From: Pomacea canaliculata
Taxonomy: Eukaryota > Mollusca > Gastropoda > Architaenioglossa > Ampullariidae
Reading direction: 5' to 3'
Assembly (NCBI RefSeq): GCF_003073045.1
Contig: NC_037595.1
Span: 13,260,074 to 13,324,073 of the forward strand
Length of the DNA stretch: 64,000 nt
In this document: in pieces, positions 4,912 through 59,000 of the stretch
How the letters are laid out: each line of letters opens with the position of its first letter
Position numbering within the stretch: position 1 is the stretch's first letter
Notes under the pieces: generated by a model
Seen by the model: only the letters and a program-made list of their open reading frames with translations
Databases searched by the model: none
Told to the model about the DNA's origin: nothing
Made by a program: the position numbers and the translations under genes

Positions 4912-7900
4912 TCATTCACTGTTAGTAGGTATATCTACTAGAATTAGTTGCACTATACAGCGAGACATTGCCCATAATCTCCCGATCCTGTCCAGATGCT
5001 CGTCGCTGAGCTTGTCGTCGTCACCAGGGATTCTCCCCGGCAACCACACGACGACCTTTCTCTCCATGCCCACCACGTCTCCCCAGTCCGACACGGTGAC
5101 CATGTCCGTCCGGGCCACAGATGTGTCTCTTACATCACAGTCCCACCCTTCCACCCCACGACTCCTATCTCGAACCACTCGGACAGGTATCCCAGCATCC
5201 CTCAAGCCCCGAACAAGGCCGTTAACCTTCCCACTCGAATCTTCGGAAGACGTGCCGAGCAGATCGTAGCTGTGGACAAGGATGAAGACGTCGCAATACC
5301 GTAATGGCGCCGGTCTCTTTTGAACAGGACTCGCGTTAGCTGAATTAAAAAATAAAACAAACAAAAATTAATGACAATGATAAGTACAAAGAGTACGATA
5401 GAGACTGAAAGGTATTGCACAACAAGTTTACATTTCGAAATTTCCCAATCCGGTAATGTTTATGAAGCATTACCTTGTCCTGCTCCAACTTTCAGCTGTT
5501 TCAGCTCTGTTGCTATGTTCCTCCCACACTGCTCACATTCCACAATATTAGCTTCTAGGTGGTCAGGGCCTTGGTGATGTAGTCGAATGACTTGCGGGCC
5601 GTCGAGTGGAGCCGGGATGCCCGCGGAGGTGTAGTCGGGAATGTTCGCGAGCGCACGAACTCCCTTGTCCACCTCCGCGACCACGCTTGGGGCCGACCTG
5701 AGCGGCACTGTTAGTGTTTCTTTGTGAAGTTCCGGTGGAAGATTGGTGCCCTTGGACGAGGCGATCCACAGACGAACGTTTCCGATGTGATTGCAGACTT
5801 CCGACACAAACCTGTGCCACCGCTTGGACAGGTCGCTGTCACAGTAGGAAAGGTTCCACGTGAGAAGGAGAGAGAGAAAGCAGAATCGAGAGAAAGAAAG
5901 AGAAAGTGAAGAAGCTTAAAGGGGACTGATGGAATTTTTTTACTCACTGTTCGCCGTTCTCATATTCGTCCACGAGGATGTTGACTCGTTGTTTCTCAGC
6001 TGCCGCCACCATCGTCTCCACAGCCAACTCTACCTGGCCCTCGTCTTCAAAGAATTGAAAGTTGTGGAGATGGGGCTTCCCCACAGCCTGCTCCTCACTG
6101 GCCTTGATGGTGAGCGACATCTGGTGGTGAATCAGGCTCGAGACGGCCAGGCTGTTGGAAAAGGTGCTGACCACGTGAACGTCCTCGCCCTCCTTGAGCC
6201 ACTGCACGCCCTTCAGCACCAGGACGATCGACTTGCCCGTGCCTGGAGGGCCTGTTACGAAGACCCTGGGCTCGGGGCTCGCTAGCAGCGCCACCTGCTG
6301 TGGAGTGAGGACGAGTCGAGATAGTCGGTCCCCAGCCTCCGACAGAGCTTCTGCTAGCGTCCTTACCTCCAGCCTCGGCGGGCTGATACAGTACACGCTC
6401 ACTTTTGTGGCCGGACCACAGAACCTGCAAGTGACACATCATCATCATCTATACACATATTGTGGCTAACTTTGCATCCCTGCACTTTTATTATGAAACA
6501 ATCACAACTCAAACACACTCTTAAAGATAATGAGTATTTAGGGCGTGGATGAGTCAGTTAAAGGAAGACAGACTGGTCAAGCTTGCCTGGCCAGGATGTC
6601 ATCGTACGTTGAATCACTTATATTCTCTCCAGCAGTCTGCTCCATTCTGGCTCTCCACCACCTCTCCAGTCTAGATGGTTCCCAGGTGCCCGGGCTACTG
6701 TCCTGTAACTCATCTGCGCAAAGACAGAGACTAACTGCACGAGAGTCGTCAGGCACACTGAGACCTAGACTCTTAGAAAGGTCCTGTGAACGGAAACATC
6801 AAGACAATAAGTCAACAACAATTCCAATAAACATAAGAAACTTATATTAATCTTTCATAAAATCTGAGGTCTTCGTTAGGTCAGGACTTTTGTGACAGTA
6901 ACGTATTCAGTGACTCGACTTTTATTTAATAATTGGTAATTAAGTTATTTATTTTATTTACAAATTTAGTAGTAAGTTTATTTATTTTAACTATATATTT
7001 GGGGGAAAGGCGGTGTCCCCGGGTAGTTATAGTGCGATCAACTCCCCAAGCTCACCCTGCTCTGCAGCAACGAGTACCCGAAAGCGTGACATGCTCTTCA
7101 GACAGTGAAGAAGGTTCACAGAAAGCTTCATCTGTGTTTATTTTTTTCTTATTTAGCTATAATTTTCAGCATTTATTTTTGGCACATGAATTACTAGTTT
7201 GGTTGCACGTACCTTCCCCAGCTTGGGGTAACTTTGTAACACCTGGTGCAGCTGACTCCTTTGGATAAAAGGCAGAATGAGCGTTGTGCGGACAGGTATC
7301 TCACACACTGTAGTCAGATCCTTCACCAGGTGCTTAAGGACACTCGCAGACCTCACCATCTGTTGGACTGCCTGCTCAGCCTTCTTACTCACGTGGTCGT
7401 CTGACCTGTACGCTGGGTCATGACCGACGGACTTAACCTCTCCCACCAGTATCCCGTAGTGGCGGTGAATGAGTAGGATGTCGAACTCACCTTTCTTATA
7501 CTGTCTACCCAGGGTGATGGGCCGCGGGTAGCGCAGCTGAGGCATCTGCTTCGCCGTCGCCGCGTAGGACGGTTCGTTGAGGTAGTCCGAGAAGTTGAGC
7601 TGCGAGAGGAGGAACATGGCTTCACTTTGCTGCTTCCCAAATTGCTGCAGGCAGTACAGAACACGCTGCTGACATTCGTCGTCCACGATGTCGGATGCCT
7701 GGACTTTCTTGAGCTGAGACTGCACTTCCGGAAGCTCGGACCACATGCGGCTCGACCCTGGCGTGGTAGTGGCGTCGGCGATGGAGTCGTTTGACGAAGA
7801 AATCGGCGCTGAAGGAACCTCTGCAGAGGGTAACTGGATTTGTTCCTGACCCTGAGGTTGCACAAGGAGAGCTGGCTGATCGCACACAGTCGTTAACGAG

Positions 7901-8037
7901 TATGGAACTTTGCGGAAGTGCACAGGTGGCAGAACATACACCTGAGAATAACGGTCAGGGTACCATTCGTCTAGTCTCTGGCGCCAATACGTCATCGGGT
8001 CAGGTACACCGGATCTTACATCCTCTTGACTCTCCAT
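4912..8037 (-). CDS. NERD nuclease-like domain plus SF1 helicase-like P-loop NTPase
   Basis: Five minus-strand exons join without a frame break: 8037-7213, 6783-6587, 6424-5948, 5835-5474 and 5339-4912, giving 762 residues. Residues ~150-270 carry a NERD signature: GEFD with Asp186, then GEVK with Glu200 and Lys202, the D...ExK arrangement of restriction-type nucleases. Residues ~380-384 (LTPQQ) resemble a helicase Q motif. Walker A GPPGTGKS is at 399-406 and Walker B NILVDEYE at ~489-496. The last exon holds TVSDWGDVVGMERKVVV, like SF1 motif V/VI (GLE...VV), and MSRCIVQLILV, like the terminal arginine-finger motif. The intron between exons 2 and 3 has a GC donor (minus-strand AG/GCAAGC). Acceptor AG at 8044-8043 lies five bases before this ATG, so a 5' exon exists. 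Nucleic-acid processing, perhaps genome defence, is inference. Confidence 0.85.
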
Positions 8038-12455: not shown

Positions 12456-15400
12456 CTACGACTTCTTCTCCGCCGAGTCTGTCGTCTGTTTCTTTTTGTC
12501 CGCATCGCCGCTGGAGTCCTTGCTGCTGCTGCTTTTGCCGAACATGGCGCCCAGCTTCTTGCTGACGGACCCCAGAGAGCTCCTCCGACGCTTGAACAAG
12601 GTTGTCCTTTGCTGCTGGACGATGCGAGCCTCCCGCAGGAAGGCCTGGAAGGCTATGCTGACACTGAGGGCGCTCTCGGCGGCGGACACCTCGTAGTACT
12701 GACAGCCATACTCCAGCGCCACCTCGTGACCCTCCTCCACGCCCACCTCGCGTCGATGCTCAAGATCGGTCATGTTGCCTAGCAACAGCACGGGGACGTA
12801 GGCGGAGGCCCGCGACTTGTTGATGCTGTCGATCAGCGCTCGTGCCGTGTAGAAAGATCGGCGGTTGCAGATGCTGTAGACGATGACAAAGGCGTCTGCC
12901 CAGCTGATGCGGCTCTCGTCCAAACTGCCGTTTGAGTTCTTAAAAAAGAAGAAAAAAATCACAGTAGAGAAAAGTTGAATAAGTTTTGAAAGCTGTTGAA
13001 AAATTCGAAGGGAACAGAAGGAGCGAGGGAAAGAAATGCAAAAAGTAAACGATAATAAAAAGGAAAAAAGAAACGTCTATGAACAGAGAACATTTTAAAG
13101 CAGAGAAGCAAAAAAGGAGATGCCAAGACAATTTATGTAGCGATGATGATGATGATGATTTACAAAGGTAGCTAACGAGACGAGCTGTTGATGAAATATG
13201 TCAATCTGTACATCACACGCTTATTTGTCAGCATTACCTTTGTACGTCACAGCAAGCTCAGCTGTCAGCATTACCTTTGTAACTTGTCAATAAGTACGTC
13301 ACAAGCTCAGCTGTCACCATTACCTTTGTAACTCGTCAATAAGTACGTCACAAGCTCAGCTGTCACCATTACCTTTATAACTCGTCAATAAGTACGTCAC
13401 AAGCTCAGCTGTCACCATTACCTTGGTAACTCGACAATAAGTACGTCACAAGCTCAGCTGTCACCATTACCTTTGTACGTCACAGAAAGCTCAGCTGTCG
13501 GCATTACCTTTGTTACTCGTCAATAAGTACGTCACAAGCTCAGCTGTCAGCATTACCTTTGTACAAGTGTCCAACACTTCCACGTCAGTGATGGTATCAT
13601 CTTGTCGGATTGTGGATCGGTACAGAAGATCTGAAGTAGACAAAAAACCACATAAAGTGGATCAGAACACAAACAAGACTTACACAAACAACAAATAAAT
13701 ATAAAAGATTGGAAACAAAAACCAAGTCTCTCTCGGTGCAGAATGCCTTTGTGCGTCGTACCCTCGAGGTAACCACGTTTAACGCGGTGCCCCAGGCCAA
13801 TCAAGCACATGACCTCAGTACCCTACAGGTCAGAGGAGGCTATTCCTCCCCCACTCACTCCGAAAGACACCATTCTTCTTGTGTTTGGCCAGAAGGGGGC
13901 GGCTTGTAAAAGCCTCATTCAGACTTCCAGCCTTCATTGAAAATTCACGCAAGCCTTTATCGTCACGAGGGTGCGAACGGTGGTGTACAGTAACAGAAGT
14001 GTGTCTGCTCTCTTGTAGTGAATCATGCAGCACTGAATGCCACGGGGGGACAACCCATGCTTAACTGCTTTAGACGGAGTCCACAGCGACAACAATCGGT
14101 CATTAAATTAGAAAAAATACTACCTAGTAAGCCTATATTAGAGCGAGTTATAAAATTTAATTCTAGTTCTCTGGCATCAACTTCTAGTCTCAGTTGAACA
14201 TAATTTTTTTCACAGGATATTGTATGCTGCTCGACCTTTTGATAATGGAGTGAAGACGTGGGTGCGCAAGCAGAGAGGAAGAAGAAATGTGATGGTGTAT
14301 TCAATGTTCAGCACCAACATACAAAGACAGTTTGTCATTGAAGTTTCTCAAATATCTGTAATAATTTGCAGTTCTGTAAAATACTTCCCAACATGTGAAC
14401 ACTATCGCTGACACTTAACTTTCTTCAAGATTAGTCACTTTTTTTTTCTCTGTAAGTCATCGCAATACCTAATAATGAGTCAGGCGAAGTTAGCTACAAC
14501 GACCAAGACTTAAAACTTAGCGGATCGGTTCGAATCTTGCTTATTCTATAAAAGAATGATCACATTGGCGATAGGCTCATAATCCTCTTCTTGGTCTCCT
14601 GCTCTTGGCAGTGCTGAGGACAGCAGCAATGGGCGGCCTGAGGTCATCTCCGGTGGCCCCCGACTTGGAAATTTGAGGTGTGTTTGACAAACCTTGGCCC
14701 TCTGTCACCTGCCTTGGCGCTCGCCAGGACTTTGGCCTCCATTCGCAGTTTCATTGAAAAGGGGTTGAAGGTCCTTGTCGCCAGAGCCCACTGGACTGGT
14801 ACCCGAGACGCCCTGGGGCCGGGATATGTTATCATGGCGCTCGTTGCTTGGTGTCAATCGAGGACGGAAATTGAGTGTTTTTCAAGAGTTATTTTATTGA
14901 AATGTTTTATAACACGGATATAGGTTGGGAGGGGAGACCTTCAAGGCTCTAGGTGTTTGTGCCAAAAAGGGGAGCAGGAGCTGGAGCTGGAAGACTATTA
15001 TTTTCATCTGTCAGTGCTATCAGGAGACTTCCCCCTCCCCATCAACACATACTGTAAATGATAAATCCTTGCTGTGTTAGTCGTGTGCCATGATTATCAT
15101 CGGTGGTGTTAGAAAAAATATATAATTATAAACAAGAAACAGGTTGTGTGGCAACAAGCGACGTTTTCAGAAAATGAGATTTAAAAAAAAAAGACCAAGA
15201 ATAAATGAACAAATTGGAGTAGACATATGTATTACACTTACCTATACTGGAACAATATTCTCCAATAAACCGCTTGGTCAGGAACCTCACTGTGACAGCT
15301 ATGGACAGAAAGAAACAGTTCGTAGTTAACGTGGAGAGATTTTACTTTTTAAAGGTCTACGAAAGCACACTTTTCCCAACGACTGAATGTAAAATATTTT

Positions 15401-18400
15401 CCAAATACTGAGTGAAAAATTCTCTTCATTCTCAGTTCAGAAGTATGGACAGAAAAGCTGTCAAAATAATGACCACAAACACACACAATCCCAACTTTCC
15501 TATTAGTTGAGGCCTGGACGATCTTAGTGATGACTGAACACGAGGATTCGTGACATGATGTGTGACATCTTTTGTGCTTGGTAATCTTTGCATTTGAATA
15601 AAGGGGAACCAATGGAAGTTACTATATATTTTGTCCAATCATTTCTAACATGTTCATCCTAGTCCACTCTGACATACCTTAAGATCCATTTAATAATAGA
15701 ACAGGCTTACATTTAAAACAATCCACGAAAAGTTGTCTTAACACCTACATATTGACTGAGTACAGAAACTTTAAGCAAGAAGACACCTGTGGTACTCCTT
15801 TAAATTATTATGTGATTTTAGTTGCACTTAGCGATACAGAAGCACAATATCATGAGATATGAGGAGTGTGTTTACAGAGATACGAGGAGTGTGTTTACAG
15901 ATATATGAGGAGTGTGTTTATAGAGATATGAGGAGTGTGTTTACAGAGATATGAGGAGTGTGTTTACAGAGATATGAGGAGTGTGTTTACAGAGATATGA
16001 GGAGTGGGAAAACTAATGAACTTCAGAAGCTGAGTCAGAGAAAGGTGAGCCCAGGACGTGTAGGTGGTCCAGTCACGTGCCACAACAAGCACACGCCGTC
16101 ACCACGAGGTCGGTGGACACGAGGGCTACCCTGGGGTTAAGCTTGTGAGGACAGCGACAAGCACGAAGCCAAGGCGGCTCGTGGTAAACACTTCAGGACA
16201 AACCTCCGCTGGAAAAAAAGTCAGGTCTGAGGAGGCGGGGGTGGAACTGGTAAAAACCTGGTTGGTAAACGATCAAAGGGATTTGGAATGCCATGCAAAG
16301 CGCCTGATAGGAGATGACTGGATTGACAACAGAGGGCCACTGGACCGCAGCATTTAATGATCGTGTGAGCGCAGAAACAGTTCCATTTCTCAACAAATCA
16401 TCAGAAACTTGACATTACAAATGTGTCTTGAGGATAACATTACAAATGAGACAATCTGTTTGTGGTTTCAGTCACAAATTAATGGCGCTCTACCTTCGGA
16501 TCCTTTTGGGTTTTCTTTTTATGACAGGCTGATTAAGTGAGCAGGGGTGAAAAGGCAGGCGAGGTAATTCACGGGGACATAACTGAAGGTTAGGACAACC
16601 ACCGCAAGAGTTATCCAAGGATCTTCCCCTTGTTAACATCAAAACTATAAATGAAACTAGAAACAGAATGCTTCTTGCAGTAAATGTCAGACACAGTCAC
16701 GAGCTTCATGCTCAGCTAAAATTTAAATTAAAACAGTTGTATGACGGGCTTAGCCAGACTGCACAAAACTAAAAAAAAAAAAAATTAGTTTAACTGTCAA
16801 AATATTTTGACATTGTTGCGTAAACACACAACATATTGTGGTTAGCACGGTAGTGGGGAGAGACAGTGAAGAGAAACATTTCCGGTGGTGGAGTAGAGCA
16901 AAACTCTAGGATAACATTTATTTTCAGTTGCCTCATGCTGCGAAGGAATGCTCGTAACAGTCAGCAAATAGTGGCATGAGCCCCAGTTAGCCACGAAGGA
17001 GGCAACAAAAGCCAAGTTGTGGGGTTAGAAACTCGCTGGACGGAGTCTGCTGATAACAGGAGGGCGACTTTTGTGTCCGCGAAATGACGGAGTAGGGTAG
17101 ACCCCTTGATGGTTTTGTCTGACAGTGGACTGTGGAATTCCTCAGTCACTTCTTTGTGAAGGAAAGGAAACAGTCGTTTAGCATTTAGATATCATCATCA
17201 ACAACAACAACAACAACAACAACGACGACGACGACGACGATGACGCAGATAATCTCTAGTAACTTTGTGAGCTAAGCTCATCTTTTCTTCTCATTCACAT
17301 GACAAGTCCACTCCTTACTGGAAGCCATTTACAATAATAAAATAAAAAATAAAAATATTTAAGAGAAAATATTATCTGTCAGTTTCATTTTATCATTATT
17401 TAATTTCACATCTTTTCTCGCACTCTCTTATCACTTGCATGCTTGTTTGACCTCAATCTGTTATCGCTCAGTCCTTAACGATAGAATAGGGGAGGTTGTC
17501 TAAGGTATTCATTTCCCAAATGACCCTCTTTTCAAGCTCGAATATCCAAAAGCTGTCCAAGGCCAGCAGGAGGACTGTTTACCGTAATTCTGACTTTGAA
17601 AGGCTCAAGAATTCTGTTCTTGTTGCGATAGTATAGCAGCAGGTACGGCGGCAGCTAATCTCCACTGGAATGTGTCGATAAGCCAGCCCAGGTGAGAGAA
17701 TCGCCTCCCGTTCGCCGAGGAACGCCGCGGACACAGGTGAGAAGTTCGCAGCCGCCGCAAAGGTGAGGAGGCGGAACACTTCAGCGAGGGCTGGACGTGA
17801 GGTCAACGGTGCAGCCAACAGCTGGTCCCTGCCACGACAGGTAGGGGCTTGACACCTGGACGCGGTCGAGCGAACTTATTGTTGGACAACAGGCGGAACT
17901 CTTTGCTTTCCCAGCTGGTCAGCCCATTGGATCGCAGTGAGGTGCCTCGGATTCCATAAGCGCGACAGAGGAGGAAAACAGAGAGAGAGAGAGAAAAAGA
18001 AATTGGTTGGGAGAGGGAAGGTAGAAAGTAGCGAGAGAGAGGAGAGGAGTACCTTCCTCACAACTTCAGAAAGTTATGTTCCCAACGACCTGAATAGGTT
18101 ACATACCGATCTTTACCTTTTTTTCGGAATTCAACAAGCCGGGTAAAGAAAGAGATATGGAAAGCAATGCCGCTTCAGACACCTACAAACTCACCTCTGA
18201 TTTAAAAAGTGTAAAGCTATTCTTTCCACAAAGAGAACTGTGTATTCGCTCACATTCTTTAAGAACGATGTACCTCAAACTTTGCCTTTGCCTAAGACCG
18301 TAGCTATGAGCCGTAGTTTGAAATGAGCCGTGAAACGAATACGAGGCCGATTTCACCGGCAGATTATTCATCTCAAAATGTTTAAAGCGTTCGAGACAGA

Positions 18401-21400
18401 AAGAGGTCAAGTCTTTCAAAATAATAAAAAGAAGTAGGCCTTCAGTTAACCAGAGCTACCTTGTGATATTCATTCAGGGAAGGTCAACGTCCTCATAACA
18501 GCCTGCTTCATAGAAGTCGTATCTGAAATATTGCACTTTAAACACCTCTTACTTATCGTCAAGTATTCATGAGACGATGAGCGATATTAAGCTTATGTCC
18601 CCCCGCCTCCTACTCCCAAAAAAAGCCAAAGAAAACTCACTAAATAATTATTTTTTGATGCTGTTAGAAATTAAAAACTACTACCTGACAATTAGTCAGC
18701 AACACCAAAAACAATTTTCAAGTCGGAATACAGCAAGGAAATTATATCTGTGAGAAAATGATCCTAGAACTATTATAAAACTTCTGAGACTCATGTTGCT
18801 TACTAAACAATTTTGTTTAGATGTTGTTCTCTCGCAACGGTGTTTTTCCTACCTCTTTGGACAGGATACAGACAACATAAAGGCAAGGGAGGTTTTGTTG
18901 ACTTTTTCTCTTATTGTCCCCGAGTCGATCTTACACCGAGAAAACACCAATAAAGGAGAAGGTCGTGGAAGTACGGTATGTTAATGGGTAACACTTTGCC
19001 TCCTCACTTACACAAAGGGAGTCGCCTTGTCCCACCAACATTGCTCTACCCAACGACAGTTATCGGCCTCGGGGGAAAAACAAATACCATCCAAGGAGAG
19101 GCCAAGATCAGTCAGCAGGATTCTTACATCAACTCATACATCAGTTACTGACATCAATTACAGGCTTCAGGTAAGTGGCAGAATGTTGAATGACACCACC
19201 ACAATCAAAAGTCCTCCTTCCAAGGCCAGCTGCTTGTCTGGACTCCAGTAAAAGACTTTCAAGACAAAAATCATAAAAAATTTCAATGTAAGGAATTGTC
19301 ACCATCTACCCGCCCCCTCTTTTTTTGGAGCCATCCATTGGTTTTCCATCACATTAGTCGGTACATGTTCTTATTTGGGAAGAAAGAAATTAAACTAAAT
19401 GAAAACCAAGGGCAGGCAGGGACGAAGCAATGCGTCCTCAGAAGTTCACTTTAGAAACTGAGGTAAAGGTCGACGCTTCGCGGAGTCTCCTACACAACTA
19501 AGACCAGCATGCAGGGATTGGTCGATGTATATCCCTTCTTCAAATCCCCGTCTGCAAGGGTAAACCCGGTTATACTCGGAAAGAGCTTTACAAACGGAAA
19601 CAAAGGATAAAGTCGGTATCAAGTCCAAAAACAGACTGCCGGGAAACCAGTCTGGATAAGTCATCAGGATTTGCCTGTTGGACTGAAAGCCCAGGATAAG
19701 GTTGCCAAGTGTCTGGCAGGTATCATCGGTGAGGCGGACAGTGCAGCCACGTCTGCACACTGCAGGACAAAATAAAAGGGTTTACTAAAATACAGTGCCC
19801 ATGCAATAAAACCTGCGCTGAGTTAATGCCAAGAGATTAGTTGCCATTACAGAATATAATGTGTAATGCAATCGGAGCTCATGAACTCTGCGCAGATTTA
19901 GATGACACTGCTACTACTGTGAGCTTAATGATGAGGCCATTGCGACCTTTTCTTGAAATGTGTGACCATTATAGTGGGATTTACCTTCACATAAATCTCT
20001 TAAGCCCTTTATATGTAAGATATACCTATTTTATATATATATAAGCTTTCTGTGTAACGATGTATTTACTCCAGGCTCAGTTTGCAACGCTAATGCAGTT
20101 ATGACAAACGTAGTTCATAGGTCGATTCATTTATTCTTGCTCTTTAGAATTTAACCGAAGACAGGAGAAATCAATCTTGTTAATTATTGCTTGTTCGAGT
20201 TTTAATACCGAGTCAGCAGTTGAGGCTATATCACAGGGAGCTAGCGAAAACAAACATGCTTGTCAAAGGCGAGAAGTGAACCAACTGTCTTCAGACATCG
20301 GTTTGGCCATGAACGATTTCCCAGTTGCGCCACCGGACCGAGGAGATGGTCTGATGGTCTATGATGAGAATGGCGAACATGACGATAAATGATGCACAAT
20401 GATGATACGAAGTAGAACATTTCAAAATTTGCGTTGTAAGAAATAATTGTCCTGTGTCTCCAATAAAACTGGAAATCGTGACTAACACGAACAACTCTTA
20501 ACACCGATGGTAAGGTCCACAAATGTATCCAGTGGTGTAACAAATGATGAAAGTCAAGATAATGGTGCAGTCTAAAGATTGACCTAATATCAATGATTGG
20601 CATTCTCTGTGAAATCATCCAATAAATACTATTTCGGTACTATTTCTTAAAAGTACAGCACCATGAAAAGTTTGGACCATTCTTTGTCTTTTTTTTTTTG
20701 CGAGCATTGGGAGGAGGGGGAAGGAGAGGACCAGCGCAATCCGCCGTTCGCGGATGTTGCACGACACTTGCATGTATTTGCACACATTAACACATTGCTG
20801 AGGTAATACTTAGTTTAACAATCTCTGTCAATGTCGAGACGAAGAATTTAAATTTGTCCAGCTAACAAGCGAACAATGTGGAGTTGTAACGTACTCAAAC
20901 TTCCAAGCATGACTAAACGTCTCAGTTCAAACTTTCGATGGATTAGTAAACATTTTCTTGGGTTTATTTATCAAAACCAGCCCAAAGCATATTGTGAGTT
21001 GCATAATTTTGCTTTTGCCATGTTATAATGTCTCATCCTTTACTTTTATTTCAAGCAAAATGCCAATCGAAGATTCACATGACCGATAAGCTTTATTTTT
21101 CTTCGCTTCATGACGAGACGTTTGGTTTCGCTGCTGTGCCTTCGAATAGTTTGCTGATATTTTCAAAATATCATCGGTCGTGGTATAGAATAGCGTACTA
21201 TTCGAAGGCACAGCAGCGAAACCAAACGACTCTTCATGAAGCGAAGAAAAATAAAGCTTATCGGTCATGTGAATCTTCGATTGGCATTTTGCTTGAAATA
21301 AAAGTAAAGGATGAGACATTATAGCATGGCAAAAGCAAAATTATGCAACTCACAATATGCTTTGAGCTTGTTTTGATAAATAAACCCAAGAAAATGTTTA

Positions 21401-38100: not shown

Positions 38101-41100
38101 TTCCCCAAAAAGTAAGCATCTTATATGTCATAAAACTAGTGTTTCGAGTGTACATTTATCTGCGCATAGGAATACGCAAACAACATCATGATTTGCATGT
38201 GAACTTTAAACTGTGAGGAGTTTGTAATCTCTTTCTAGTTGACCATGCACGAGTAGCATTAATCAACAGCGCACAGGACTACATCAACGCCAGCTACATC
38301 GCAGTGCGTGTTAAGTTTTTTTTCACTACCAGGTATCAAAGTTTAATGCTACTTTCGCAGAATCAAGCAGAATAATAGCGACGTTAATTTAAACTAATGA
38401 GATTCATTTAGCATTTACACAAGTTTGCGATATTTTCGATCATTTAGTAAGAAGACTTCAGATTTAAGAAATTTTGGTTTTCTTCTTAAGGGAATTCATT
38501 TATAACTATCTTTTTTTTTTCAGCTGCGCATCACCAGCACCACGAATTATTTACTTTTTGTGTCCACTATTGACAGGGAGCTGATTCTCCTTGTGAATAC
38601 ATAGCTACACAGGCACCACTGTACTCTACTCTCTCTGACTTCTGGCGAATGGTCTACGAGCACAGGACAAGGGTCATCGTCATGCTATGTGACAGTGTAG
38701 AAAATGGAAAGGTCAGCGGAGTCTACAAGGATATTTCATATATATATATATCATTTGTGCACTTCTCTTCAGCCAGAAGAATCTTTATGTTTATTGGAAA
38801 CAACACACATTTTTCTACTTTTATTGCCAGATTGGAGAAACATCCAATCCTTTGTTTACAAAAATAAAAAAAGGATACGACTAAGAAATTATAAATTAAG
38901 AAACTCCTAATGCATAAAAACAAGAGAGAAGAATGATTTCGTGTCTAGTGACTACGTTTCCTTCATATGTATTCTTTCAATGGCAGAAAATGGTTGACCC
39001 GTACTGGCCTGACGAAATCAACGTACCAGTGCGACATGGGGAGCTGACTGTCACAATGACCGGTGTCTCTGTCCTTGAAACATATGCAGTGCGCAAGATA
39101 ATCGTGACAATGGTAAACTTTATGACATATTTTTATAATAGGTCTAAGCAACATATAAATATTGCCAGGGGTCTTCAAAGTAATTTATCGTATTAAACTT
39201 ATATATATATATCGCGGTATGTAATTTCTGGCTACGTAGGTCCTGACTGTCGGAATGGATGAAACACAAACAGCACACGCCTACTTTGCTTATGTTGCGA
39301 TTTTTCTTGCTCGGAGAGGAGAAGTCTAATTCTAAACTGTGACCAAAGTGGCCTAACCGCAAGTAAAAGCATAACAAGCCCTGCCTTGTAACTAGCATGT
39401 GTTCTATTTGTTATTGTCAGTAACTGAGAACACGTACCCAGTTATAATTACCCATGCGATTTAAAAAACTTGCTATTTGTAATTTGCCATGTGTATTTAA
39501 CAATCAAATTTGTGATCTTGCGGACGGCTGATGGTACAGCGAGAATCTGGAGTGTAGAGCGGATAAGCCAAAGTCAAAACCGGAAGAAGTTATTTTGCAT
39601 CACCTTTATTTTTCGTGTTTTCTATCTTCATTTGACGGTTATTCGAACTTTTGGACTGTGAACCACGCGATACAAGGAGACTTTTTTTCTGTAAAGTTCT
39701 TTCAGTCCTGCTGTTGCTGGAGAAAGACATTAATAAATGTGATTCTCCTTCATTTCTTCTTCGTAAAAGTAGTAGTAGTATTGTGAGTATTATTATTATA
39801 AATACTACGGTCACATGCATTCATAATTCTTTGAAAAGGTGGGTTTCGTCAGAAATGTAGGTAATTTGAAGTCTGTCATCCACATTTGAACTATAAAAAG
39901 GAAAAACAAAATTCTATGTATTGACGTGAACTTAGAAGTTGCGTGAAATCAAGCCATTTACTACTAAATAAATAAAATCAATCAACCAGTGTCTCGCGTC
40001 CCTCAATATTAGATACTTCTTAAGCCAAACATATTTGATTTGCTTTCTGGAATAATTTTTGGTTCTTGTACAACTGTTGTTGACTGTTTGACTCGATGCA
40101 GAGAGGACGACAAGACCTCAGAGTTACTCAGTTGTGCATCCGTGGGTCGAGCGAGTATTGGAGCCTTCGTGTTGAGCAGCTCATTGACTTCATTCGTGTT
40201 GCTGGTCGGCAGGCAAAACATTCCAGAGGACCGGTCACAGTCCACTGCAAGTAATACGGAATTCCATCATATCGCAACACTCGTACTATCCAAGTTATTT
40301 TTTTGGTAAAAATTGAAGGTCTTTCAATTGTGAACTGTGAACAGCTAGTTGGTGAAAAGGCTGTGTTTTCAATTCTCTTGTGAAATAAAAACGTTTTCAT
40401 CCAACACAATGAATAAAAATAATCACAAACAGAAATTACCGAAAAAAAACTTTCAAAAGATCAGAAAGATTCAAATGAATTCCTCCTTACATTGCTGTCA
40501 ACATGTGACTAATCATCACTTCTATTTCCTCTGTACAATAATACATTTTGCATCCACATGGCAAAAAAACAACAAAAAACAAACAAACAAACAAACAAAA
40601 AAAAAAAAAAACTTCTAGTTTTTTACAACAAAAGAAACATTTTCTTTGCGAACTGCATTACTTCTTGAAAAATGTCTTGTTTGTTTGTTTATTATTCTGT
40701 CTTTTGTTTTGCAGTCTCGGCGTTGGCAGGACTGGCATGTTCATTGCCCTCGATCTTTTGACTCGTTTTGTGGAGAAACACAACCTGAACAGTGAGGTGA
40801 ACGTGTATGATGTTGTCAAGAGAATGATGGGATGTCGTCCGAACATAATTCAGTCTCTGGTACTAAATAGGTTTTTTTTTTATATTTCATAATAGTTAAA
40901 AAAGACGTAGGTAAATACTTTTCTTTGTGAGAATCATTAATCATTTTGTCTCAAATATTTATCTAAACAAGCTGCTATTATGGATGTGCAATACTGTTGC
41001 GGCTAAAACACAACCCCTAATGTTGATCTCACAAATATCATTCTCCTCAAGCGATAATCAAAGTCAAAAGCAGTAACCTGATGATTTTTTGTGTGAAGGA

Positions 41101-42110
41101 CCAGTATATGTTCATACATTATGTACTCGGGTTGATCATCGAGGAGAAGATGCAGAACTGTTCTAGAAGAATCCCATCGGGTGTTTTCTATCAGAACGAA
41201 GGGCACACAGTCAATGTGTATAATGAACTCTACGAATCCAGTGAGTCGATCACTGTTATGTTTACACGCTGAGACGCTTTTGTTTGTACGTGTTTGTACA
41301 GGGGTGGGCAATTAATTTTCCCAAGGGGCCGCATGAGAAATTGGGATGGTCTTAGAGGGCCGGACTAACATAGTAAACTCAGTTTTACCCAATACTGTAT
41401 ATATAGTATATATACTGGCGGGCGGGCCAGAGGGCGGGCCGGTCAGAGACAGGAGGCGGGCCGGATGCGGCCCGCGGGCCGGCCTTTGCCCAGGTCTGTG
41501 TTTGTATGTAAGGTCAGATGATTCAAAGATGCAGCATTATGTTCATTTGTTTTCTTAGAATGCTTCAGATCTAGTAAAACGGTGTAACAACATATGTTGA
41601 AATGGGTATAGAGATATTGCTAGAGCAGACCTGGGCAAAGGGCGGCCCGCGGGCCGGATCCGGCCCGCCTCCTGTCTCTGACCGGCCCGCCCGCTGGCCC
41701 GCCAGCCAGTATATATTATATTCTATATATACAGTATTGGGTAAAACTGAGTTAACTATATTAGTCCGGCCCTCTAAAACCATCCCAATTTCTCATGCGG
41801 CCCCTTGGGAAAATTAATTGCCCACCCCTGTGCTAGAGTAAAAAAGTTTGCACTAGAATTAATACTGTTTAGACCGAATGTCCGATAGTATCATTCAAAA
41901 ACAGCATGCTTATTAGATGCTATACAAAGCAAAGTTTCCAATATTTCACCATATCTTGTTATCCTTAAATTATTCATTAATCAATGAGGCTGCCAGATTA
42001 CTGTACTTAGTTCCTCGTTAAAGCGCTTCACGTCTTTTATGTTTAATTATTTTTAAATTGCTTTCCCTTTCCTAGTTGGACACGAGAACATCGATCTACA
42101 GCGCTACTGA
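29120..42110 (+). CDS. Receptor-type tyrosine phosphatase, EGF-like ectodomain, single PTP domain
   Basis: Eighteen exons join with consistent phases (592 residues): 29120-29170, 30781-30829, 31285-31410, 32137-32256, 32592-32711, 33496-33615, 33996-34043, 35135-35240, 36355-36402, 36739-36829, 37977-38079, 38239-38303, 38577-38711, 38987-39112, 40102-40250, 40715-40859, 41099-41240 and 42076-42110. Residues 1-33 are a signal peptide. Four six-cysteine EGF-like modules follow (spacing C-5-C-5-C-4-C-1-C-10-C in modules 3 and 4), then a two-cysteine stub. The membrane helix is at ~219-242, followed by RRRKR. The PTP domain starts near HLFQEEFD (~286) and includes DYINASYI, DFWRMVYEH and VHCNLGVGRTG. 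Catalytic Cys485 and Arg491 and the Q loop (IQSLDQY) are kept. KNRY reads KNRS (322), and the WPD position reads SSE (452-454). The protein is probably weakly active or a pseudophosphatase. The last exon is only 11 codons. Confidence 0.9.
29220..29535 (+). mobile_element. tRNA-derived SINE with target-site duplication
   Basis: It begins GGCCCGGTGGCGCAACGG (A-box-like), has a GAGTTCATTTCTC B-box-like segment, a non-tRNA body, and a poly(A) tail of about 24 bases. An 11-base duplication, TCACCTTTCCC, flanks it at 29209-29219 and 29536-29546. It lies in intron 1 of the receptor phosphatase, about 40 bases past exon 1. The intact duplication and long A tail suggest a fairly recent insertion. Confidence 0.88.
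31530..31900. other. GC-richer island with two CRE-type octamers
   Basis: Within AT-rich intron 3 of the receptor phosphatase, a GC-richer block contains perfect TGACGTCA at 31725-31732 and 31804-31811, and a TATA-like GGATAAAAATAG near 31783. It could be an inserted element or an internal promoter/enhancer. I found no terminal repeats or coding sequence. Confidence 0.35.
32480..34110 (+). repeat. Tandem duplication of an EGF-like exon with flanking introns
   Basis: Exons 5 (32592-32711) and 6 (33496-33615) are nearly identical. Upstream intron sequence is repeated as well (TTTTGGTGAGATAAATAATTTG before each), as is the downstream piece (GAATGCATCATCGATAATGAAAGGGA). A third, shorter copy surrounds exon 7 (33996-34043), where only the first third of the module survives before a GTGAGTAC donor. 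The duplicated unit is about 900 bases for the first pair and 500 for the truncated copy. Confidence 0.85.
41301..41498 (+). mobile_element. Non-autonomous hAT element (MITE) 1
   Basis: A 198-bp element with imperfect terminal inverted repeats CAGGGGTGGGCAA and TTTGCCCAGGTCTG, GC-rich inside (GGGCCGG repeats). An exact 8-bp target duplication TGTTTGTA lies at 41293-41300 and 41499-41506. No transposase is encoded. It sits in the last intron of the receptor phosphatase. Confidence 0.93.
41626..41830 (-). mobile_element. Non-autonomous hAT element (MITE) 2, opposite orientation
   Basis: A 205-bp copy of the same family as 41301-41498, inverted. It begins CAGACCTGGGCAAA and ends TTGCCCACCCCTG. 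Its own 8-bp target duplication TGCTAGAG lies at 41618-41625 and 41831-41838, so it inserted independently. The two copies form a potential hairpin in the pre-mRNA. Confidence 0.93.
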
Positions 42111-53079: not shown

Positions 53080-56000
53080 ATGTATCGGATCTACATCATC
53101 TTTTTGATGCTGCCTATGGCAGTATCAACGGTAAGTGGATTGTCACTAGTCTCCATTAATACTCTTATGAAACGAGAAGCAGTTTGCCAGTTGACAATTT
53201 TCTTTTTGCAGGAAGTGAAACACGACAGGCAGACAGACAGTGAAAGAGAAATAAAGATATACGACGAGAGCAAAGAGAGAGAAAGCAAACTAACATTGGC
53301 TATATGGTGCTGTGTATTCAAATCGTAGAAAAGAAAATATTAGACTAGAAGGGGAAGGGAGAGAGAAAGAGGAAAAACGAAGGGATTTCAGAAAAAACGA
53401 AGAGAGTTCAGAAAAAGAATTTCAATTCTTTACTGATATGTGGTAGAGAGAGAGAGAGTGTTTTAAAAGTACAACACATGTACAGGTAGACTATTGTCTT
53501 TATATTTGATGTCAACATCGCCAGAGAACATGAGGAAGAGTCACATTAATGTGGAAAAGCTGCGCTGCGATAAGCATGAAAATGATTTAAAAAAAACCCA
53601 AAGGCTGTTGTATTGCTGTAAAACTAAACTATGTTTAGAAATAGGATGTCGGTTTTTGTAAAGTCTCTGTAGTCTCTTAATGCTAAGGTTAATACACAAT
53701 GTCCGTGTAATAATGCCAGATGAGATAAACTTGATGTATTTAATAATTCATTAATGACAGTTTTCATAAAGCATTGTTCACGTATAAGAGAGGGGGAAGT
53801 GTAAGTGAAAATGAAGGTATGTTTGCTTCGTTGTACATGTGTGTGTGAGAGAGAGAGAGAGGGAGAGAAAGTGAGTGTGTGTGTATATATATATGGTGTG
53901 AGGAGAGAGAGAAAGAGTGTATGTGCGAGAGAGAGAGAGAGAGAGAGTGTGTGTTACAGTTATGAAACTAATACAAAACTAGTTGTACTGTAATGCAAAT
54001 ATTTTTAGTTTTAATTAAAAAAGACTGAAAAAAGTCACCCTAGTCACCATGTTAACTTGAAAAGAAACAAAAGGAGAATCTAAAAAGAACTCAAAGTTAG
54101 CAAACACACATACACGCTCTTACACACGCACGCATGCAGACATGGAAGAATAGAAAGGCAAAACGAACGAAAATAAATCTGAAATAAAAGAAAACATAAA
54201 AGTAGAAACGACAATGAAGTAAAAAGAAAACTTACGAATGTAATACAAATTGAAAGAAACCACATCAAAAACGAATAAAACAATAAAGGAAGGAAACTGT
54301 AAAATCTAGTTTTCAGCAGACTGATGTTTATATTTTTGCTTGCTACTATTTACAGATCGCTACCACAGCCACGTCTTCTACTGATGAACCAGGTATGAAA
54401 ACACGAACACGTGGAGTAGACTTTTGTCCCACTGGGTCTCTATCTTCTTGAAGTATGTAACACTACAGCATCCCACGGGGTCCTCTGGGTACATTCCCCC
54501 CTACCCCCACAAAATCACTTACTGTTCTCCCTACTAAGTCTTCAAGTATTTCAACTGAGGACCAAAAACTGATTTTATGAACATCTACATTTTCTGTATC
54601 ATGTAAGTCACATAAAATATACTTGGTTACTCTTACAAAAATGTGCGCTTGCGTGCATGTGTGTGTGTGTGTGTGTTTCCTCACCTGTGTGTGTGCGTGC
54701 GTGTGTTTACAGTTCCCAACACACCGAGCGACTTTTGGTGGTCCCCACCTTATGGACCTAATGTAACGTTTAACTTCACCGTGGATGGCTCATTTGCCAT
54801 GTGTGACGTCACGGTGCAAGGATTTGACTTTACAGAGAACGTCACCGGCACCTGTGAAAGTGTGTACGTCACTGGTCTAAAGAACGGGAGGATTTACAAC
54901 CTGACCGTGACTGTCTACAGAGGAACTAAAGCCAGTCAACCCGCACTTTTCAACTTTACCACCGATGAGACTGGTGAGCGGACTAACGATGATTAAAATG
55001 ACAGCTACGACAAAAATGATGAAAATGAAAAGAGAGAAACACTTTTGACATACTCCTTTATGAATATAGAAAGAAACGGTTAGTTGTCTAAAAGTTCAGA
55101 GTTCCTTGATGATTTTTGTAACTATGACAAAAGAAATTAAGATGTAGTCCCCTGATTTGTATTCCACTGTAAGTGTTGTTATTCTTCATATTGCCGTCAA
55201 CATGTCTACTAAGAGAATTTAACTCTTAAGTCTGGAAACCCAACAACATTTTAATGGGGTTTTGTGAATCCTTTGATGTATTTGTGGAAAATGTAATCTA
55301 AGGAGGTATGAAGGGTTGACAGGAGAAGAAAATGCCCGGCATTGTTGCTGATGTTGTTGCAATGTAAAGCCACGTTTGATGGCTGTATTTCTGTGTCTTT
55401 CATCGTCTAGCTGTTCAGACAAGGAATACAGGAATATTTTCTCTAGCTTCAACATGTATACTTCTGCTGCCTTGTTGAGATTGTACGGGAAAAGACGGAT
55501 GAAAGCTTTATAGGCTCGACTCCATTAAAAATGTGTTCATCTATCTGTCTGTCCCTCCGTGCATTTATCTGTGTGTTGAGAGAATTCATTTCGGACTTGC
55601 AGCGTCACAGGCTGTGAGAGACCTCGCCGTTAGTGTGAGTGACAACTCCTTAAATGTCACGTGGCAGAAACCAGAAGACATCAACGGAATATTACATGGG
55701 TATGGGTTAATTGTCAGACAAGGATCCCAGTCTGTGCAGGCGATCGTGTACTCGGCCATGGATCAGTCAAGTAATAGCACAAGATGTGAGATAAAGGTGA
55801 GTTATTCTCTCTATCACTCACTTTTTTCTTTCTCTTCCTTAAAAGTCTCTCTCTTTCACACACACACACACACACACGCACACACACAAACATACACATA
55901 CACATGCACAAACAAACTCATGCAAACACATACACATCTGTATTTGCACATCCATAATTTTACTTTAACATCAAACAATATAAGACAAATTACTGTTGAG

Positions 56001-59000
56001 AATCGTTGCACGCTTATTTTAGATTTTGTTTTGTTTACTTTCTGGTGTCTGAGGCGATAGGAAAAAATAGAAAACTGTACAAACAGGAGAATGGAATTCG
56101 GAGATATACAAAAAGAAAAGCAAGAAGTAACCGTCACTGGGCTTCACCCGGCCACAAGCTACAACATCACGGTGTTCGCCATCAATGGCGCTGCTGAAAA
56201 CAACGGAGCAGGTGAAGCAAACACCTGGACTGGAACTACAAATATTGCTGGTATGTACTGTCTGTCACATCGATGTCAGCTACATGTTTTGTCTTATGCT
56301 AATAAACCTTTAAAACAGGAAAATGTGATTCAAAAATATGGACACTTAAAGTAGCTTGTTTGTGTGACATTTCAAGGATAACAAATGTTAAACAAATATA
56401 GGAAAAAAAATCACATTTTGCAGAAGGATGGTTTATAATCCGAGGAGATTAAAGAAAGCTATACTACAGCAACTTGCTGCTGCTTAATAAAGTTTATTTA
56501 TCTCTTTAGAGAGTCATGACAACTGTTTCATGTATCAAGTTGCTCAACGATGTATACATAAATTAAATCACTGGCAATGAAATAAGATCATCAAAATTAA
56601 AACCCATGAGTGTCTTTTGAAATTTGAAGTACTAAAAATCTGCAACCCGTAGAAAATAAAAAAACAACCAATTCTTATTTCTGTACATAAGTAGGCTGAA
56701 AGTGTTTTTCTTTAGCTACGCTTATTTTTGAGATAAATAGCATAAGGTGTAGAGGCAGGTAGCAGACTGCAGTTTGTGTCGTTAATTTTTTCAGTTCCAT
56801 CAAACCTGACAACCTTTACAGCCACAGCGATAACGGAGAACTCAGTCACCCTCAACTGGACATCACCGGACCCCTATCCTGGACCCACTAATTACACCTT
56901 GGTTATCACAGACCTTGGGTCTCGCTACTACAGCAACAGCAACACGGACTCACCTACGAGCACACTTATCCCAGGCTCGTTTAAACTGAACTCTGCATCA
57001 CACTATTTACACAACTGTGAACAGCTAGTTGAATACTTTACTAGATTGTAATATATATTATAGTTTAATCCTAATTATTTGCAATCTATGGTAAGAGTTT
57101 AAAATAAAGATAAAAATAAATGACAATAAAGTGTCATGCTTCCTCTCAGGATATAATAATGTTACCTACACTGTGAGAAGTCTGCGCCCAGCATGGAATT
57201 ACAGCTTTTCACTATCAGCACACACAGAGAGTGGCTCCTCAGGAAACATAACCACATCAATATCTACGAAAAACTCAGGTACCTGACTATCAGTCTGCTT
57301 CATGAAAATTTCACTTGTCGGCGTACATCAAAGTAAAAACTGAGTGCGAATTTATTTTTAAATGAGTAGTTTTGCTTTATTTAAAAAATCTAACTTTCAA
57401 AAGTATGGGAGAAGCTTGCTCTTTTGTGCACAAGCTAGTTACAAGGTTTTGCACATTCTTACTTGGGTTTTGGTAAGAGGTCAAGACATGACCCTACGTC
57501 ACAAATATCTGACTGCTGATTGGCTAACATCTTATTAACAAACGCTCGAAGCTTTCGCATTGGTTTTGGTTTGCCAGAGACGTCAGTCCAAGAGTGCTTA
57601 TTAAAAATGAAATAAGAAAGTTGGTGACCGTCCTATTTATAGTGTTTCGACTTTCCCTTTTCGTTTTTTTAATCTTTACATTGACATCTTAAGATGGTTT
57701 TACCGCTACTTCTACGTATGAAAAGAATCATGGAAGACAGAAATGATGTTCCAATTTACCTACCTTGTTTGTCTGTAAGTGTGAACATGGTGTTGTACAT
57801 GTGTCAGCTCCCGGAACTGTTCAAAACTTGACTGTGACACCTGGGCAGGAGGCTTTCAAGCATCTGACCGCAAGATGGCGATGTCCAGGTGTGGCTGACC
57901 GTCACTCACTTATCAAGGGTTTCTTTGTGAAGACAACAATCGTGGTAAGAACATCAATCACACACCCCGTCACTGAAGGATGTAGTGCATGTCTTAGTTG
58001 AACTGTTTCTTTAAAATAAACCGTTCACTTGACTGCATATACGTTTGTGTGTGTTGACATAATTTTGAAAAACCTCTTTGTGTATACTGGTAGATGACCA
58101 TCAGACACCTAATGAGTACAGCATTACATAACACCAGGGATCAAATACAAAACTGAGAAATGATTACACTGAACTACTCTGGAGTACAGCAACACCATCC
58201 AGTTGACTACAAAGTTAAAAACTTTACAATCGTTTCAGGGACACGGCCCTGGATGCGACATCTCGTCTAGGTACACCTCACCTGTAGTGAAGTCGGTGAC
58301 TCAGGTAAATATGTGTTTTTATTCTCCTTGCACCCATTTGCCACAACAATACCGATTACTATTGTTACTGCACATAATCAAGCTAATAATACATAATAAT
58401 GTCTGATCTTTGTGTTTGTGTGTTTCAGGCAGACCAGACAATACATTGCAGCTCAAGCAGCTGCTACGTGAGTTTGGCAGAAAAAAGTTGCCAAGGTAAC
58501 CAGAGCGTGGTGATTGACGTGCAGCCTGAAAACCGTTATCTTATTCAGGTAATGTCACGATGACAGTCTTCGCTTTACAGTCTTAGTCTTTGGGTAGTAT
58601 GCGTTTATTTCAAAAGCAAGTGTATTAATGTACTCGTTTATTTCTAAAATAAAGTTATAAAAGTAAGTCAAGCAATTCAATTTGTAGATGTTATAAATAT
58701 ATAGGTGAGTTGAATAAGTGTTGAAGATTCTTAATGTAGTTTTTGCTAGGAAAGGTTGAGCGCGTCAGCAATTTTTCGAACACGTTTCGTCTACTCTGTT
58801 TAATTACAAAATCGTGTATACTTGATGAAAGAGATATGAAAAGCTGATATTTGTGGCATGATAATGGGACAGGTGGGGAGTGTTGGTGAGGAGTACAACA
58901 GCTCAGACTGGGCCAACACCACTTACTGTGCACCTGCTGGACGTAAGAGTTATTCTGTAACGTATTGATGATAAACACATTTCATGTTTTATCTTGTACT

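Follow-up and report, generated by a model that had tools for sequence, protein, structure and literature searches.

A spliced snail gene that apparently joins a NERD-type domain to an SF1-type helicase, and its family of at least 150 copies in Pomacea canaliculata

Does the genome of the gastropod Pomacea canaliculata hold a single gene in which a NERD-type nuclease-like domain is followed by a superfamily 1 (SF1)-type helicase and, if so, does that gene stand alone? The question is raised by a window of 64,000 nucleotides (NCBI RefSeq assembly GCF_003073045.1, contig NC_037595.1, positions 13,260,074 to 13,324,073 of the forward strand), for which a preliminary description made from the sequence letters had proposed such a gene at positions 4912..8037. 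As set out below, it is well supported that the gene is real, apparently intact and, as judged from its sequence, a NERD-helicase fusion. In Pomacea canaliculata it is one divergent member of a family that numbers at least 150 copies.

The gene lies on the minus strand, where an in-frame splice model of 762 codons over 4912..8037 reproduces exactly the coordinates, the strand and the five-exon frame first proposed. D186, E200-x-K202, GPPGTGKS at residues 399-406 and DE at 493-494 stand at the positions that had been claimed for them, and the motif V/VI-like C terminus is located at residues 708-717 and 744-752, whose key positions (G711, E713 and R747) are kept in 18-19 of 21 aligned sequences. 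The exon phases (0, 2, 2, 1) are mutually compatible, and intron 2 is of the GC-AG type (exon end AG, intron start GCAAGC), the remaining introns being GT-AG. An alternative GT donor for exon 2 at 6607 keeps the frame and shortens the protein by 7 residues, so that exon 2 may end in a way that gives a protein of either 755 or 762 residues. The exons have a GC content at third codon positions of 0.49-0.73 and the introns an overall GC content of 0.29-0.42, and the longest stop-free frame reaches 330 amino acids, a length that none of 300 dinucleotide shuffles attains (longest 231). The exons, with the number of paralog loci in which a homologous block was recognised, are as follows.

7213..8037, minus strand: coding exon 1, residues 1-275, with the NERD-type domain; splice model, Pfam NERD at 21.3 bits, homologous block in 20/20 paralog loci
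6587..6783, minus strand: exon 2 (linker), followed by the GC-AG intron; weak collinear block in 17/20 paralog loci
5948..6424, minus strand: exon 3, predicted first RecA-like helicase domain; sub-cut-off Pfam AAA_19 and UvrD-helicase, block in 20/20 paralog loci
5474..5835, minus strand: exon 4, predicted central helicase part with a motif-III-like LW; block in 19/20 paralog loci
4912..5339, minus strand: exon 5 including the stop codon, predicted second RecA-like domain; block in 18/20 paralog loci, hhalign match with the family

The relatives of this gene bear directly on whether its two halves belong together. In the assembly searched (440,159,624 bases on 24 contigs), the window protein has 67 matching places, five of which are the window gene's own exons (59 of 1477 candidates scored), and these places are found on contigs C1, C2, C3, C4, C6, C9, C10, C11 and C14. 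The 62 places outside the window show 32-53% identity by exon, with no internal stop in 57 of them. Twenty relative loci were sampled, picked to spread across contigs, and in all 20 the blocks of exons 1 to 5 that tblastn recognises (exons 1 and 3 in 20 loci, exon 4 in 19, exon 5 in 18, exon 2 in 17) are collinear and on one strand, which argues against the halves being separate genes, the possibility that the preliminary description had itself raised. Together with a bacterial protein that carries NERD and helicase motifs in one frame (see below), this collinearity supports a predicted single polypeptide with NERD first and the SF1-type helicase second. Since the same exon layout is common to relatives whose exons are only 32-53% identical, the gene appears to be spliced and long resident in the snail genome, as had been proposed. 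The separate alignments of exon 1 (A4, without L129, which has a stop), exon 3 (A5, without L139 and L144, which have stops, and L141, which is partial) and exon 5 (A6, without L132, which has a stop, and L139, which is short; L141 and L144 have no block) were restricted to usable blocks. Apart from the young arrays described further on, an adjoining pair of loci (L127 and L128, at G000:C9:8144628 and 8151118) ranks with the window gene's closest relatives, with 38-39% identity in exon 1 and 44-47% in exon 3.

The predicted N-terminal domain is defined by the following features of exon 1, to which Q226, present in 21/21 aligned sequences, can be added.

7273..7503, minus strand: NERD match, residues 179-255 (profile 33-110 of 111), Pfam
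7480..7482, minus strand: D186, PD-(D/E)XK acidic residue, D in 20/21 aligned sequences
7432..7440, minus strand: E200-x-K202, PD-(D/E)XK motif, E in 20/21 and K in 20/21 aligned sequences

The search of hidden Markov model profiles that had been suggested for this domain (PF08378, gathering score 22.1 bits) gives a match, at 21.3 bits (E 4e-4), under the cut-off, for exon 1 as a whole. NERD is found in 5 of 6 window pieces of the exon 1 region at 21.1-23.5 bits, four trimmed pieces standing above the cut-off at 22.7-23.5 bits, with the trims picked after the first match. Across the genome, Pfam places NERD over its cut-off at four further places (27.8-28 bits), and 16 of the 20 exon-1 sequences (window gene and 19 paralogs) are recognised as NERD at E 0.01 or better. 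As a control for noise, four shuffles of exon 1 gave no match, and one of four helicase shuffles matched unrelated families (best E 0.005). AlphaFold2 models predicted from the single sequence, without the paralogs, reached a mean predicted local distance difference test score (pLDDT) of 38.1 and 46.2. In the available text of PMC9040797, NERD is described from bacteria, some archaea and plants, joined to a helicase only occasionally; eukaryotic mentions come from the available text of papers on common bean (PMC9197503) and Leishmania (PMC9031872).

The helicase half, encoded by exons 3 to 5, is recognised mainly by its Q-like, Walker A, Walker B, V and VI motifs, which stand in the expected order.

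6295..6309, minus strand: Q-motif-like LTPQQ, residues 380-384; aligned by hhalign to LTxxQ of bacterial helicases, L380 in 21/21 and Q384 in 20/21
6229..6252, minus strand: Walker A GPPGTGKS, residues 399-406; K405 in 20/21
5959..5979, minus strand: Walker B ILVDEYE, residues 490-496; D493 and E494 in 19/21, the other two rows gapped
5050..5079, minus strand: motif V DVVGMERKVV, residues 708-717; G711 and E713 in 19/21, two rows gapped
4945..4971, minus strand: motif VI AMSRCIVQL, residues 744-752; R747 in 18/21, three rows gapped

The consensus of the snail family reads GLERKVV at motif V and MSRCTSQL at motif VI, which we take to resemble SF1 motifs, the motif names being assigned from general knowledge. 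The match to a UvrD-type helicase profile that the preliminary description had led one to expect stayed under the Pfam cut-off, as did all the best models: in exon 3, AAA_19 scores 20.0 of the required 25.1 bits and UvrD-helicase 17.1 of 23, and the helicase part scores 15.9 of 24 bits with SLFN-g3. When the snail family is aligned by hhalign to 88 bacterial SLFN-g3 helicases, the second helicase domain matches over 128 columns with a probability of 91.3; exon 5 of the window gene alone gives no match. In the PDB (best 60 of 84 rows), the exon-3 family profile finds the NFX1-type protein ZNFX1, presumably an SF1-type protein, in ninth place (E 0.0011), and the exon 5 and exon 1 profiles find nothing below E 0.1. 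A phmmer search of the PDB with the single protein returned mS29 alone (E 0.29). Among the PHROGs, the exon-3 piece matches PhoH-like (E 1e-4) and DNA helicase (E 2e-4) families, the NERD pieces giving nothing useful.

Nhi is a staphylococcal protein in which NERD is joined to an SF1 helicase, and it offers the closest comparison with the snail gene. In the available text of PMC10952713, NERD is listed under Nhi-like systems, and that of PMC12904381 presents Nhi as a nuclease-helicase encoded by one gene, which nicks DNA and unwinds it, lists it as sensing the single-stranded-DNA-binding protein of phages and has sensitivity to it decided by such phage proteins. Nhi and Nhi-like NERD+UvrD proteins (PADLOC Nhi PDLC02372, C3a187 PDLC01087) have the same domain order as the predicted snail protein, a similar size and a single polypeptide, whereas the snail gene has five exons, an N-terminal extension and a linker, belongs to its large family and is only distantly similar. 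The PADLOC Nhi profile matches the snail protein at trace level, with E 0.017 and 11.8 bits, on the P-loop part alone. Two other kinds of NERD protein, SmdA and the kinase-fused PglW, share the NERD domain with the snail protein and, unlike it, have no helicase and carry other fusions or none, according to the available text of PMC9040797 and PMC12839542.

A sequence link to bacteria comes from profile searches with the snail sequences themselves. A snail NERD profile found no match in 19 bacterial genomes, and a snail exon-1 profile run against 398 genomes, from the phylum of a Bacillus genome, matched seven places in six genomes. A separate Pfam search of these six genomes puts NERD, at 45-63 bits, on six of the seven places, and five of these six lie within open frames of 574-603 amino acids. 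The best bacterial match, L145 (592 residues, E 3.6e-5 for its genome), has the stretch CDFTIFHRIYGILIVEVKS where the snail has FDILLIHRHYGILVGEVKS, and it also carries P-loop, KGLE and SRA motifs, its helicase half being assigned by these motifs. The full snail profile aligns to L145 in three collinear blocks, at 18.8 bits for NERD, 6.2 for Q/Walker A and 4.3 for motif V, with a total score of 33.3 bits; 150 shuffles gave a maximum of 1.4. Among the four bacterial loci that were fetched, frames of at least 300 amino acids occur in L145 and L147 alone, L147 being a 318-residue NERD protein without a helicase, and none in L146 or L148. Collectively, these matches support the view that the snail gene is probably an animal version, spliced and massively expanded, of the Nhi-like NERD-helicase build known from bacteria. 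One bacterial genome, G414, has thirteen NERD places, mostly in frames of about 300 amino acids, which is an unusual number.

Several observations weigh against the interpretation given so far. With a threshold of E 0.01 per genome, about 4 of the 398 genomes are expected to match by chance and 6 were observed; the count alone thus shows nothing, and the bacterial link rests on where the matches fall. In PADLOC, the profiles RTasNERD-Hel (E 0.028) and NERD+UvrD (E 0.046-0.051) reach only trace level, on the P-loop, unrelated families score better (GajB E 0.0055, DinG E 0.011), and two NERD pieces had no match at all. The NERD score of the window protein itself is marginal and lost in some trims. 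Judged by this one sequence, the fusion would be plausible rather than firm. Indeed, Pfam does not list NERD for residues 98-340 or 100-275, nor for the full-length protein, which we take to be losses in the HMMER pre-filter, and exon 1 of the window gene is missing from the NERD places that the genome search lists at E 0.001. The helicase part of the window gene has no Pfam or NCBIfam model over the cut-off, and AAA+ ATPases (CDC48) come first in the PDB search with the exon-3 family profile (best 60 of 84). In four of the 20 sampled paralogs one tblastn block is interrupted by a stop, perhaps because the block runs on into an intron or perhaps through real damage, and two of the 20 have altered NERD residues (N in place of D in L130; N and M in place of E and K in L141), so that some copies, such as L141 and L130, may be inactive. 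NERD need not be a nuclease either: the available text of PMC9040797 gives the Staphylococcus protein SmdA, with a divergent NERD, a role in cell morphology.

How large the family is becomes apparent when the helicase exon of a tandem-type copy (L138) is used as the query, which yields at least 150 matches (best 150 of 566 candidates). These best 150 copies are 81 to 100% identical to the L138 exon, 148 of them are stop-free, and they are distributed over C11 (83), C14 (44), C7 (19), C3 (3) and C2 (1). The window gene, a dispersed and divergent member, is not among the best 150 matches to L138. If a cluster is taken as three or more copies with gaps of up to 100 kb, 126 of the 150 listed copies are clustered, the median gaps in the ten largest clusters being about 21-37 kb. 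Thirty-nine copies, 35 of them on the plus strand, make up the largest cluster (C14:12,033-1,134,994), which opens its contig and has a median spacing of 23 kb. Other clusters are wholly one-stranded (13/13 on C7, 11/11 on C11) or mixed, with 13 minus and 9 plus copies in the second largest and 8 and 5 or 7 and 3 in others. The C11 clusters extend to 24.24 Mb of the 24.34 Mb contig; the arrays are partly subtelomeric.

Selection on the copies was gauged by the ratio of nonsynonymous to synonymous substitution rates (dN/dS, NG86 method) in a set of 32 loci, from which stop-bearing blocks, pairs of fewer than 100 codons and pairs outside a dS of 0.02-0.8 had been dropped. The median is 0.34 in exon 1 (range 0.21-0.65, 159 pairs from 31 copies) and 0.37 in exon 3 (range 0.25-0.83, 32 pairs from 19 copies), the pairs sharing history and not being independent; exon 5 left no usable pairs. 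No pair of exon 1 or exon 3 has a ratio above 1, and there is no sign of an arms race at the whole-exon level, which counts against the interpretation favoured here.

What such a family might do can be approached through the gene structure, the domains, the conserved catalytic residues, the dN/dS below 1, the tandem expansion and the sequence link to NERD proteins of bacteria that are as long as helicase fusions, all of which are observed here and from which we infer cutting and unwinding activities, a substrate and a role in defence. The helicase half would engage nucleic acid that is foreign or aberrant (at single-stranded regions or ends, or as intermediates of viruses or transposons) and travel along it using ATP, the NERD half would nick or cut it, and the many differing copies could widen the range of targets or raise the dosage. 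A role in the processing of foreign or damaged nucleic acid, as put forward in the preliminary description, would likewise be conceivable for the predicted enzyme. We give about even chances to the reading as a whole, namely an apparently intact gene of an animal that encodes a NERD-type PD-(D/E)XK domain fused to an SF1-type helicase, Nhi-like in build, member of a large family and acting by cutting its target. A bolder form of it, in which a NERD-helicase of the bacterial anti-phage type exists in spliced form and has been amplified to at least 150 tandem, partly subtelomeric copies that would constitute an innate arsenal of effector enzymes attacking nucleic acids, on the scale of a receptor family, is tentative and on the doubtful side.

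Three other explanations have to be set against this preferred reading. The least probable, and a very improbable one, is that two adjoining genes, or chance resemblances to domains, have been wrongly spliced together; the failure of Pfam to list NERD for the full-length single sequence speaks for it, and it is opposed by the collinear blocks in 20/20 paralog loci, by the conserved motifs and by L145, in which NERD and helicase motifs share one frame. We also consider it unlikely that the genes travel with, or serve, a mobile element which encodes a NERD-helicase for its own copying, so that the copies would be element copies. Helitrons carry helicases, the similar copies number at least 150, and some clusters are mixed in strand (13 minus, 9 plus); a recent burst of DNA/hAT-Charlie elements in the snail genome, reported in the available text of PMC6129957, counts in the same direction. 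Mobility sits poorly, however, with the clustering of 126 of 150 listed copies, which in the ten largest clusters are separated by median gaps of some 21-37 kb, with the several clusters that are wholly or nearly one-stranded (35/39, 13/13, 11/11), as tandem duplication gives, with the five exon blocks common to the copies, and with the mostly open state of the divergent dispersed exons (57/62 rows outside the window stop-free).

The remaining explanation, rather unlikely in our judgement, is that of an amplified enzyme of genome maintenance or the germline, active in repair, at telomeres or in the processing of replication forks, in place of an anti-virus effector. SF1 helicase-nucleases serve repair, and a maintenance role would agree with dN/dS below 1 and with the partly subtelomeric position of the copies, with the largest cluster at the beginning of C14 and further ones close to the C11 end. 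To our knowledge, however, genomes rarely retain upwards of 100 copies of a core repair gene, and Nhi, the closest known single-gene build, is anti-phage in the available text of PMC12904381.

Other candidates were compared with the snail protein and set aside. The SLFN-g3 (PF09848) set comprises 88 bacterial proteins, 8 from plasmids and the best 80 of 197 from genomes, and an N-terminal PD-(D/E)XK-like FDxx..ExK motif is present in 84 of the 88. Several of these proteins (L002 and L004-L010 from plasmids, L011-L090 from genomes) are annotated as 'DNA/RNA helicase domain-containing protein', and eight of them have no nuclease domain among the 25 Pfam families listed; the SLFN-g3 proteins thus look like a widespread, apparently unannotated nuclease-helicase-like build. 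They resemble the snail protein by eye, with comparable motifs I, V and VI, an hhalign probability of 93% at the P-loop for the single snail protein and a second helicase domain that matches the snail family profile (91.3%), whereas the snail N-terminal domain has no match in the SLFN-g3 set. By hmmsearch, snail exon 3 scores 5.8 bits against the 88-protein profile, at the P-loop. As the profiles match at the P-loop and the second helicase domain and not at the N terminus, the SLFN-g3 proteins were rejected as members of the same family; they may be a separate family that works similarly. Agrobacterium phage gp10, tried as a yardstick for NERD, scores 23.2 bits with that model, and its plasmid relatives are hypothetical or sce7726 proteins, not helicase fusions.

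Searches with the single snail protein returned 30 phage records, with PhoH in the best rows at E 0.2, and 6 plasmid records, with UvrD as the best at E 0.2 and none for exon 1; viral contigs gave no match, and a pattern scan of prokaryote genome contigs gave 9 matches and no relative. Since pattern scans detect no more than close relatives, they speak against contamination or a recent transfer, not against distant kinship.

The preliminary description had regarded the gene as under-described, and this is consistent with searches of the open-access literature, in which no listed title or start of an abstract describes an animal NERD-helicase; animal protein databases may hold annotated ones. 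The main text of the snail genome paper (PMC6129957) mentions neither NERD nor a helicase, which lends the proposal no support. With a spliced animal NERD-helicase in at least 150 copies, whose catalytic residues are conserved and whose dN/dS is well under 1, the defence-type proteins common to bacteria and animals would gain a family, and the scale of the family makes the gene more interesting than a lone odd fusion. An invasive snail with a chromosome-level genome offers a direct test.

The window contains further features. On the minus strand, 12459-13076 is an exon of a Ras-family small GTPase (Pfam Ras E 6e-17). On the plus strand, 40542-40889 is a protein-tyrosine-phosphatase exon (Pfam E 2e-9), downstream of which four frames at 54616-59534 (plus strand) have FN3 matches just under the cut-off; together, the two regions perhaps represent receptor phosphatase genes in a row. 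Two inverted GC-rich copies at 41310-41510 and 41630-41835, with ends like CAGGGGTGGGCAAT, resemble by eye a short element of the hAT type. A long, near-perfect palindrome at 21007-21340 has almost identical open frames on both strands, and tandem repeats are found at 13253-13563 (49 bp, 6.6 copies) and 15854-16006 (23 bp, 6.7 copies).

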